Source of the DNA: Cryobacterium glaciale
GTDB lineage: Bacteria; Actinomycetota; Actinomycetes; Actinomycetales; Microbacteriaceae
Length of the DNA: 64,000 nucleotides
Direction of reading: 5' to 3'
Assembly (NCBI RefSeq): GCF_004402535.1
Contig: NZ_SOEY01000006.1
Location: 124,001 to 188,000 of the forward strand
Below, in pieces: positions 21,433-24,743 of this stretch. The notes under the pieces were generated by a model. It saw only the letters and a program-made list of their open reading frames with translations, made no database searches and was not told the origin of the DNA. The translations under genes and the position numbers were made by a program. Position 1 is the stretch's first letter, and every line of letters begins with the position of its first letter.

Positions 21433-22062
21433 CTAGAGCAGGGCTGCCAACAGCGATTTTTCCAGCCAGTTGAGGTACGCCTCGGTCGACCAGCCCAGTG
21501 ACAGAACGAGCGTCCGAAACGTGTGCGGGTGGGCCAGAGCCCACATCGTCGCTGCAGCCTCGTGGTCGCTGATGCCGCCCCGCAGTCCGCGCTTTTCGCG
21601 GAGCGCCGCCGCCACCTCACCGAACCCGTGCAACCGGGCCGCGTCGCGCTTCTGCTCGAATTCGCCCACATCGGGATCGACGACGGCCGCTTCGCTGACG
21701 ATGCGCAAAATGCCCGACGTACGCTCGTTCACGAGGGCGCTCGACCGCGCCAATATACGGATGACCTCGGTCGCCGTGCGTGCCTCGGCAATGCGTTCCC
21801 GAGTCACCCCCGACAACAATGCCGGCGCATCCGGCTCCGCCGCCACCCGGTCGAGCACCGCCGCGAGCAGTTCGGCCTTGGACCCCACTGAGTTGTAGAT
21901 GGTCTGCACCACCACGCCGGCCTCCCCCGCAATGGCCGCGACCGACGTACCCACATAACCGCGCTCCAACATGAGGCGCCCTGCAGCCATGACGATATCC
22001 GCCCTCGTGCTCGCCGCCTGTGCCGCTCGCCGCCGGATCGCCCCGTTTTCCCCTGTATCCAT
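21433..22062 (-). CDS. TetR-family transcriptional regulator
   Basis: About 209 residues. The N-terminal helix-turn-helix reads TRADIVMAAGRLMLERGYVG with SVAAIAGEAGVVVQTIYNSV as the recognition segment, typical of TetR repressors. The C-terminal ligand domain is variable and gives no hint of inducer. ATG 22062 is chosen; another in-frame start at 22083 adds 7 residues. It stands next to the pseudogene-rich region. Its regulated gene may have been lost, or it may control the ABC-F gene 118 nt downstream. Confidence 0.82.
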   Translation of the reverse strand: MDTGENGAIRRRAAQAASTRADIVMAAGRLMLERGYVGTSVAAIAGEAGVVVQTIYNSVGSKAELLAAVLDRVAAEPDAPALLSGVTRERIAEARTATEVIRILARSSALVNERTSGILRIVSEAAVVDPDVGEFEQKRDAARLHGFGEVAAALREKRGLRGGISDHEAAATMWALAHPHTFRTLVLSLGWSTEAYLNWLEKSLLAALL

Positions 22063-22100
22063 ACAACTAGCATATCGTTCCACTCAGTAGACCCTAATGC

Positions 22101-23114
22101 CAGCAAGAGAAGATCATCGCCTGGCCCCAGGCCAGCAACGCCGAGGTCCTCACCGAAGCGTGGGACTACACCACCAACACCGCCGAAACCGGCCGACCCC
22201 AGACCGGACCACAGCACGAACACGACTGGGACGCGACCTTCGCCGCCCAACAAGGCCTCGTCGCAGGGATGGCCTGCGCGCTGCGCATCCCCTATGGCAC
22301 CGCCTCCAGCCTCCTCCACGAGAGCCGCGTGCTGGTGGAATCCCGCACCCAGACTCTCGATGCCCTCCGCACCGGGTAGATCTCCCTGCGGCACGTGCGG
22401 CGGGTGCTCGACCAGCTCGACTCCGTCCCCCCGCCCGCCCGCGCCGAGCTCGAAACGGTGCTGCTGCCGCACGCGAAACGACTCACCCCCGCCCAATTCG
22501 ACGGCAAGGCCCGAAAACTCCGCGAACGCTTCCACCCCGACAGCATCACCGTGCGCCGCCCCAAGTGCCTCGCCGACCGCCGGGTGCAGTTCTTCCCCGA
22601 CACAGACGGCATGGCCACGATCTGGCTCCGCGCCGCCGGCGACGAGTTTCCTGCGCATCCTCACCCACCCGCACACCGGCATCGTCCTCGACGTCAGCGC
22701 CGAGCCCTTCCGGGTGCCGGCGAGCCTGAAGAAGTACCTGCGCCTCCGCGATGGAACCTGCCGGTTCCCCGGCTGCAACCGCTCCGCCGGCCACAGCGAC
22801 CTCGACCACACCTAGATAAGCAATTCGGCGGCCCCACCACCGCCACCAACCTGCACTTCCTCTCCCCCGCCCACCACAACCTCAAGCACTTCAGCGACTG
22901 GAAGGCCGTCGCCACCCCCGACGGCACCCTGCACTGGACCAGCCCCGCCGGCAAGCACTACGCCACCGACCCCGCCACCCGCATCAGCCCACCGCGACAA
23001 CAAACCGCACCAGCACCACCTCCGCCGACCGCACCAACACCACCCCAGTCCGACCCGTGGACCTCCGTTTGGGACACCGACAATGCCGGGGACCCTGACC
23101 CCCAACCGTTCTAG
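22101..23114 (+). pseudogene. Broken DUF222/HNH endonuclease (13E12-repeat-like)
   Basis: Remnant of the actinobacterial DUF222-HNH family, whose cellular role is unclear. The 5' end is missing; recognisable text begins IIAWPQASNAEVLTEAWDY. There is an in-frame TAG at 22378, then LRHVRRVLDQLDSVPPPARA onward to GMATIWLRA. Near 22640 the frame shifts and the central part of the family is absent; the reading jumps to FLRILTHPHTGIVLDVSAEP and the HNH start CRFPGCNRSAGHSDLDHT. A second stop (22813) and another shift precede TNLHFLSPAHHNLKHFSDWK. At least two stops, two frame changes and one core deletion are visible. It cannot be functional. Confidence 0.85.
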
Positions 23115-23287: not shown

Positions 23288-23320
23288 ACCACCGCAGCGT
23301 TCACTCGTAGGAAGGACCCC

Positions 23321-24131
23321 GTGCTCGTCACCGTCACCTCGACTGCGCCTGCCGCATCCAATCTGAGCCACCTGCTTCGTAAGCACCCAGATCGCGCGCA
23401 GGAATTCTCGCTCGTTACGTGAACGACCGGCCATATGCGTTTTCACCCATGGTCGCCATCGCGCTGGGCCGGGTCTTCCGCACGGCCATGAACGGTTTAA
23501 GCGAGTCGTTTCCCGAGCTCGCAGCATCCGCGTTGCCCCTCGAAGTCACCGTGGCGGCCGTGCCGGCCAAGGGCCCCGACACAGCCGGCCTCGTCACGAG
23601 CCTGTTCGGGCAGCTCGGCTGGTCCGTCGATGAGACGCCGATTCTGCTGGACCCGGACTCCCCGGAGTGGGGCGATTCCGTCTACGTCGACCTCGTTTTG
23701 CGCGGCGACGTCCTCCTCAGCGATGGGCTCCGGCGCCTTTATGTTCTGCTGCCCGTGCACGACGACGCCAAGAACTCTTGGGTATCGGACGACGAGGTCG
23801 GCAAGCTCCCCCGCGCGGGCGAAGGCTGGCTGCCTGACCACCCCGAGCGCGCGCTCATCACCCGCCACTACCTCGCGCATCAGCGGTCGATGGTCGACGA
23901 GGCAACGACGCTGTTTGCCGCGAATGCCCGGCTGAACGACCTCGACCACGGGCCGGTACCGGAGCTGGCCTCGATCACGGATTCGAGTGGTCCCGGGCCG
24001 AGTGCGTTGCCTGGGCGGCTGAAGTCGCGGCTCGCCGCGGGTTCACGGTCGAGTACCGAACGGTCGGCGACGTCGACGTCCAACTCGGCTCCCCGACCCA
24101 ACTCGCTCTGTTCCGAAAGGCCACCCAGTGA
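23321..24131 (+). pseudogene. hen1: Gutted bacterial Hen1 (3'-terminal RNA ribose 2'-O-methyltransferase)
   Basis: Three pieces of bacterial Hen1 in order. (1) 23321-23422: GTG after GTAGGAAGG, 33 codons including SNLSHLLRKHPDRAQEFSL, ending in TGA. (2) From about 23410 in another frame: RYVNDRPYAFSPMVAIALG to HPERALITRHYLAHQRSMV (about 23905), the Hen1 N-terminal domain. (3) 23976-24131 in a third frame: HGFEWSRAECVAWAAEVAAR to GSPTQLALFRKATQ, the C-terminus. The SAM-binding methyltransferase core between pieces 2 and 3 is gone. Known bacterial Hen1 methylates RNA 3' ends so that repaired RNAs resist recleavage, working with Pnkp. The stop overlaps the ATG of the adjoining pnkp remnant by 1 nt. 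Confidence 0.82.
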
Positions 24132-24355
24132 TGACGCGTCTCACTCTTCTCGACCTGTCGCTCGTAGTGCTCGGCGGCGCCTCGGGCTTCGGAAAGTCGA
24201 CGTTCGCTGCCAGCCACTTCGGACAGTTCGAGACGCTGTCGCGGGACCTTTTCCGCAGGCTCGTCTCCAACGACGAGAACGACCAGGCTGCGACTTCCAA
24301 GGCTGTATTCGGCGTGCTGGCCATGGAATTCGAGCCGGTCGACCCGCGGCTCTAA
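24131..24355 (+). pseudogene. pnkp: Gutted polynucleotide kinase-phosphatase (Pnkp)
   Basis: About 74 codons. It begins MTRLTLLDLSLVVLGGASGF with the kinase P-loop GASGFGKST, then LSRDLFRRLVSNDENDQAAT, the start of the bacterial Pnkp 5'-kinase domain. After roughly residue 57 it passes straight into FGVLAMEFEPVDPRL and a stop, which resembles (from memory) the extreme C-terminus of Pnkp. Intact Pnkp is about 850 residues with kinase, phosphatase and ligase-like adenylyltransferase domains, so nearly all of it has been deleted. It is translationally coupled to the hen1 remnant, the order expected of the bacterial RNA-repair operon. Confidence 0.75.
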
Positions 24356-24369
24356 GCCACAAACAGAAG

Positions 24370-24395
24370 GCCCCGCCGGCTGATGCTGGCGGGGC
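24370..24395. terminator. Hairpin terminator, convergent
   Basis: GC-rich stem GCCCCGCC (24370-24377) with GGCGGGGC (24388-24395) and a small inner GC-TGAT-GC stem. On the minus strand it is followed by a T-rich run. It ends the SUF operon and also follows the pnkp remnant. Confidence 0.75.
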
Positions 24396-24413: not shown

Positions 24414-24743
24414 CTACATGGCGAAGCCGAGGGCGCGCATCATGTCGCGACCGTCGTCGGTGATCTTCTCCGGACCCCACGGCGGCATCCAGACCCAGTT
24501 GATGCGGAACTGGTCAACGACGCCGTCCAGAGCCTCGGCCGTCTGCTCCTCGAGCACGTCGGTCAGCGGGCAGCCGGCCGAGGTGAGGGTCATGTGGATG
24601 ATGAGAGCGTTGTTCTCGTCGTCCCAGCCGAGGTCGTAGATGAGCCCGAGGTCGACGACATTGATGCCGAGTTCCGGGTCCATGACATCTTTGAGGGCTT
24701 CTTCGATTTCATCGAAGCGCGCCGGACTGAGTGTGGAGGCCAT
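24414..24743 (-). CDS. SufT-like metal-sulfur cluster biosynthesis protein (MIP18/DUF59)
   Basis: 109-residue MIP18-family protein that helps mature iron-sulfur proteins. It has the DPELGINVVDLGLIYDLGWD motif and the conserved cysteine in TLTSAGCPLTDVLEEQ. Last gene of the SUF operon, 4 nt after sufC, which strongly supports a role as accessory factor or cluster carrier. PaaD-like phenylacetate proteins share the fold, but the neighbours exclude that pathway. Length is normal for the family. Confidence 0.9.
   Translation of the reverse strand: MASTLSPARFDEIEEALKDVMDPELGINVVDLGLIYDLGWDDENNALIIHMTLTSAGCPLTDVLEEQTAEALDGVVDQFRINWVWMPPWGPEKITDDGRDMMRALGFAM

Follow-up and report, generated by a model that had tools for sequence, protein, structure and literature searches.

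The window, by which we mean the whole 64,000-nucleotide stretch of Cryobacterium glaciale DNA that was analysed, carries pieces of hen1 and pnkp, the two genes of the bacterial Hen1-Pnkp RNA-repair operon, between a TetR-family regulator gene and a sufT-like gene. The remains of a DUF222 gene lie upstream of hen1. Deletion lengths are taken from a base-level alignment with the intact hen1-pnkp operon of genome G011, and G050 is a second Cryobacterium genome used for comparison. The site contains the following features.

21433..22083, minus strand: TetR-family regulator gene, left border (Pfam TetR_N, E 5.8e-10)
22107..23114, plus strand: DUF222 gene remains, with the 5′ part gone, a 275-bp internal deletion, a frameshift and internal stops (82-88% nucleotide identity to G050, where the DUF222 frame is open; a stop interrupts the PF02720 match)
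23309..23315, plus strand: ribosome-site-like AGGAAGG before hen1 (by sequence; conserved in G050 and G011)
23321..23406, plus strand: hen1 piece 1, about codons 1-29 (TIGR04074, E 9.3e-7), then a 136-bp deletion against both G011 and G050
23407..23968, plus strand: hen1 piece 2, about codons 75-261 of G011 (Hen1_L, E 9.4e-56; TIGR04074, E 1.2e-57), followed by a 472-bp deletion relative to G011
23969..24131, plus strand: hen1 piece 3, the stop and roughly 53 codons before it (TIGR04074 profile 417-462, E 6.7e-13)
24131..24297, plus strand: pnkp piece 1, about codons 1-56, the beginning of the kinase with its P-loop (TIGR04075, E 3.5e-21; AAA_33, E 4.5e-7)
24298..24355, plus strand: pnkp piece 2, the last ~17-18 codons with the stop, joined in frame to piece 1 across a deletion of 2331 bp by comparison with G011 (placed by tblastn at the Pnkp C-terminus of relatives, 83-89% identity)
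24370..24395, no strand: inverted-repeat terminator-like element adjoining sufT (by sequence; similar ones seen by eye at occupied and empty sites)
24414..24743, minus strand: sufT-like FeS assembly gene, right border (Pfam FeS_assembly_P, E 1.3e-15)

The three hen1 pieces lie in order and each is matched by NCBIfam TIGR04074 (bacter_Hen1, 462 profile positions): piece 1 at positions 1-30 (27.7 bits), piece 2 at 77-244 (195.4 bits) and piece 3 at 417-462 (47.9 bits), all singly below the whole-protein cut-off of 340. Pfam Hen1_L (PF12623) matches hen1 twice, at 23321-23421 (E 4.8e-7, profile 1-31) and, with the far lower E value listed for piece 2, at 23419-24000 (profile 79-238); the homology covers the N-terminal ligase-associating region of bacterial Hen1. 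Piece 3 has no Pfam match at E <= 1. The pnkp piece is matched by Pfam AAA_33 and by NCBIfam TIGR04075 (bacter_Pnkp), for which two stretches pass singly. In tblastn with five relatives its residues ~1-59 align to the start of Pnkp and residues 58-75 to the C-terminus. The match pattern at 23321-24355 is far beyond chance. An earlier note on this DNA had described three ordered pieces of Hen1 followed by the beginning and end of Pnkp, and the comparison with both families that it proposed gave significant matches for every piece. The fusion of the P-loop start to the C-terminal end is also as it described, except that the end comprises the last ~17-18 residues and not 15.

The hen1 stop TGA (24129-24131) and the pnkp ATG (24131-24133) have one base in common, the stop/start overlap that had been pointed out. 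The overlap is likewise 1 nt in G050, and 4 nt in G011 and G012. hen1 is directly upstream of pnkp and coupled to it by the overlap, the arrangement of a hen1-pnkp operon. The ribosome-site-like AGGAAGG lies 5′ of the hen1 start codon, GTG, and is kept in both comparison genomes. Pnkp sequence was present in 79 of the 80 named Hen1 loci fetched (presence was counted, not adjacency). In the intact system Pnkp heals both ends of a toxin-cut RNA and ligates them, and Hen1 puts a 2′-O-methyl group on the 3′ end, by which the RNA resists being cut again. Sections of PMC4411300 describe Pnkp-Hen1 as mending ribotoxin-cut RNA, with 2′-O-methylation making the RNA resist the same toxin; they place hen1 and pnkp always in the same operon and give the in vivo RNA substrates as still unknown as of 2015.

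Relative to G011, hen1 has lost bases 87-222 (136 bp) and 785-1256 (472 bp), both deletions being frame-breaking, and pnkp has lost 2331 bp in frame (3 x 777); a second local alignment gives 2335 bp for the pnkp deletion and leaves four bases unaligned. The alignment with G050, which misplaces the pnkp end, repeats the 136-bp gap and splits the second hen1 gap into 373 and 84 bases, G050 being shorter there. The hen1 frame reaches a stop after 33 codons; the frame of piece 2 is still open. Deletion by short-repeat recombination gains no support: the junctions share 0, 1 and 1 bases against a random mean of 0.8, a weak test, read on G011 in place of the window's own pre-deletion sequence. By sequence mapping, residues 1-231 of G011 Hen1 correspond to 4dqz (Hen1 N-domain) and 271-467 to 3jwi (methyltransferase). 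The 472-bp deletion takes out about codons 262-419, and a complete methyltransferase domain with its SAM and metal sites is absent from the remnant. Residues 3-171, 172-422 and 445-851 of Pnkp likewise map to three solved domains. We take these to be the kinase, phosphatase and ligase (the structure records mostly say ‘Metallophosphoesterase’). The pnkp remnant keeps about codons 1-56 and the last 17-18 of 851, which leaves no kinase-phosphatase-ligase chain. From the deletion lengths and the mapping on solved structures it follows that Hen1 has lost most of its methyltransferase domain, and Pnkp about two thirds of the kinase, the whole phosphatase and almost the entire ligase. Neither whole enzyme, Hen1 or Pnkp, can be made from the remnant.

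Selection was assessed on 262 hen1 and 72 pnkp usable codons, counting changes in the window copy where G011, G050 and G012 agree. The window branch has 24 nonsynonymous and 18 synonymous changed codons. Over the same codons the N:S counts are 3:18 for G050, 3:19 for G011 and 19:49 for G012, each read against two others in agreement (Fisher test, window vs G050 and G011, 3.6e-5; vs G012, 0.003). The nonsynonymous odds in the window copy are about eight times those of the two intact copies, and the purifying selection that marks a working RNA repair system is not seen in the remnant. The contrast of 24:18 with 3:18 and 3:19 indicates that selection on the remnant is relaxed. The observed N:S of 1.3 is below the 2.3-2.8 of neutral change, so selection acted on part of the branch; as a rough inference from N:S, this suggests relaxed selection over about half of the window branch. 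Identity over the concatenated flanking genes is 93.3% with G019 and 92.5% with G050, thus the loss of the cassette is not brand-new. The earlier suggestion of a recent loss therefore stands only in part: selection would have relaxed roughly half way along the branch, and the loss is older than "brand-new" would imply.

A profile search of the genome that holds the window found no second Hen1_L, and neither a PNKP ligase (PNKP_ligase) nor RtcB was found there. Among the 9 genomes searched, this one included, only G021 has RtcB, and it also holds an intact hen1-pnkp. The proposed check for a second intact copy in the genome hence returned the remnant only. With no second Hen1_L, PNKP_ligase or RtcB, the window lineage seems to have abandoned these routes of RNA sealing (the Hen1_L, PNKP ligase and RtcB families). 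The DUF222 gene upstream of hen1, presumably of the 13E12/HNH type and passed over in the earlier note, is also in ruins; in G050 it is open over 647 codons (PF02720, E 3.2e-22). DUF222 is matched 19 times in the genome, some matches being parts of a single gene, so the family is common in it.

Within the genus, Hen1_L is found in 6 of 57 genomes, including that of the window, and the remaining 51 have no Hen1_L match. The sufT gene and an ABC-F gene were each found in 56 of the 57 (on two contigs in G049); G043 gave no match to either at the thresholds used. Four of these 56 have hen1 or pnkp sequence at the TetR-sufT site: the copies of G050 and G011 (Cryobacterium flavum) are intact, those of the window and G006 broken. 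The conjecture that intact relatives still carry the cassette at this locus is borne out by the two intact copies. The G011 operon reaches 659 bits with TIGR04074 (cut-off 340) and 1345 bits with TIGR04075 (cut-off 750), and its Hen1 is identical to that of Cryobacterium flavum NZ_FNIB01000004.1. G012 and G021 have intact cassettes on contigs other than their sufT contigs. The broken copy of G006 (L012, 5226-8636) has a different hen1 deletion, of 548 bases and frame-breaking. Its pnkp is complete but for a 2-base loss at the very end, by which the stop is lost and the frame runs to 978 codons. The N:S of this pnkp (22:40) is above that of G050 (8:62, P 0.0015) and G011 (15:65, P 0.034); that of its hen1 (5:13) is not above G050 (5:22, P 0.49). 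Since N:S is raised in pnkp and not in hen1, the decay of the G006 cassette may be young. Of the 17 genomes in the clade around the window, 11 hold nothing but a short spacer of 103-234 bases at the site (a 363-base figure for G026 takes in some of sufT). Two more of the clade differ from these: G049 carries the DUF222 gene at the site but no hen1-pnkp, with a contig break inside DUF222, and the TetR-sufT interval of G034 (L048) is 938 bases of other DNA. Further Cryobacterium genomes have sufT-to-ABC-F intervals of 1.2-5 kb, looked at by tblastn alone.

In a sample of 398 genomes from the family, Hen1_L occurs in 41, drawn from 17 of 85 genera. The match is near full length by profile coordinates in 39 of these 41, the window and G213 holding fragments, so a fragment is an uncommon state for a carrier in this sample (G006, which is outside it, adds one). 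Across the 20 family loci and 80 named loci that were looked at, the cassette occupies varied places. No fixed TetR-sufT site was seen in the family: none of the 20 family loci, drawn from the 40 matching genomes other than the window's, has TetR, sufT or suf genes in 14 kb (E < 1e-25). One of the 80 named loci has sufT nearby at E < 1e-15 and is C. flavum by content (flanks about 6 kb or less).

How the cassette came to this site can be viewed in two ways, both compatible with a dead copy in the window. The block could have been present in the ancestor of the 17-genome clade, and lost many times, rather than passing between species at the site; we consider this quite possible, somewhat short of probable. 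Descent of this kind agrees with four-fold synonymous divergence in pnkp, which is similar to that of the flanks (G050-G011, 135/500 vs 278/904, P 0.14; G050-G006, 145/483 vs 307/901, P 0.13), and with hen1 of G011-G006 (31/171 vs 212/911, P 0.16). The left border and the DUF222 upstream region are collinear in G050 and G006. Against it, hen1 is less diverged than the flanks in G050-G011 (42/279 vs 278/904, P 9e-8) and G050-G006 (30/168 vs 307/901, P 2e-5), and no hen1 or pnkp scar was found at the other TetR-sufT sites (tblastn, E 1e-5). The trees also disagree. In the cassette tree G011 joins G050, with a strong support of 0.998 on the full alignment but a weak 0.618 over the columns that the window retains, and the window joins G006 (0.775 and 0.841, respectively). 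The flank tree, built on four genes beside the site, instead puts G011 together with G047 and G006 and groups the window with G050 and G019. Between L008 5694-7097 and L009 7524-8945, the G050-G011 pair, hen1 four-fold divergence is about half that of pnkp and flanks. Hidden constraint on hen1 synonymous sites was rejected as a general rule: in only 107 of 268 pairs does hen1 diverge less than pnkp (those with pnkp four-fold divergence of 0.02-0.40 among 98 loci, a few of these loci being duplicate records). As hen1 is not generally the less diverged gene, its low divergence in Cryobacterium is better read as recombination. Comparing sequences in this way gives mixed evidence on origin, which we read as probable occasional exchange of the cassette between species, together with loss. 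The TetR-sufT site may be permissive for insertions. Tentatively, the interval could be an exchange site at which a Hen1-Pnkp immunity cassette is picked up, swapped by recombination and repeatedly lost.

The open frame of hen1 piece 2 and the in-frame pnkp deletion mean that short peptides could be made, which counts against a dead copy. A live shortened system would consist of a mini-Hen1 N-domain and a mini-Pnkp that keeps its P-loop in the in-frame fusion, serving for example in binding or regulation. We rejected it as very improbable: the two hen1 deletions break the frame and bring a stop after so few codons, the lost domains include most of the methyltransferase and nearly the whole ligase, the excess of nonsynonymous change points to relaxed selection, and no relative has the same short form among the 57 genomes or the 56 TetR-sufT sites read. 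A sequencing or assembly artefact, in which the operon is intact in the genome and the deletions are misassembly, is very improbable even for a draft of 35 contigs, given that the site lies inside a 447,806-base contig, that the substitution pattern itself is relaxed and that the neighbouring DUF222 gene carries a deletion, a frameshift and a stop of its own.

Homology, deletions and relaxed selection agree on a Hen1-Pnkp cassette in ruins, as the earlier note had it; intact copies stand at the same site in relatives, and the genome has no substitute copy of the families searched. The segment 23321-24355 is almost certainly a dead copy of a bacterial hen1-pnkp RNA-repair operon. In an ancestor the TetR gene and sufT would have been separated by an accessory block of the DUF222 gene with hen1 and pnkp, as they still are in relatives. 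At least three deletions inside hen1-pnkp, and damage to DUF222, would then have occurred in the window lineage, the remaining pieces drifting under relaxed selection. The order and age of these events, and the reason for the loss, are matters of inference.

What remains is a true pseudogene cassette, belonging to a known system that the genus holds patchily and that has broken more than once. The remnant resembles bacterial Pnkp-Hen1 (TIGR04075 / TIGR04074; 4dqz, 3jwi, 4gp6, 4j6o, 4drf) in gene order, stop/start overlap and the sequence of every remaining piece, and differs in being broken by three deletions so that neither enzyme is whole. The Capnocytophaga Pnkp1-Rnl-Hen1 complex has the same biochemical purpose according to sections of PMC4411300; there hen1 is far from a two-gene operon in which kinase-phosphatase and ligase are apart, whereas the window type has a single-chain Pnkp adjoining hen1. 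In G213, from another genus of the family, the hen1 5′ end is left as a fragment (L177, 7529-7811), as in the window. Its frame runs into the end of an apparent tyrosine integrase (a putative label, based on a motif), whereas the window hen1 has internal deletions; no pnkp match was present within the 14 kb fetched. Our search of the available literature found no paper joining Pnkp, Hen1 and Cryobacterium, and the only match to Hen1, Pnkp and ‘pseudogene’, as far as its available text goes, was a phage genome paper.

The finding adds a case to a known kind, an accessory RNA-repair cassette that has decayed while related species keep intact copies at the same site, and the ruin by itself is ordinary gene loss of an accessory defence cassette. 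Related species with intact, half-broken, broken and no copies at one site provide matched strains in which to ask against which toxins the system gives protection. If the interval is indeed an exchange site, these would form a natural series, from empty and intact sites through G006, with hen1 broken and pnkp near full length, to the window with both broken, and such a series could show in what order RNA repair is lost and at what cost.
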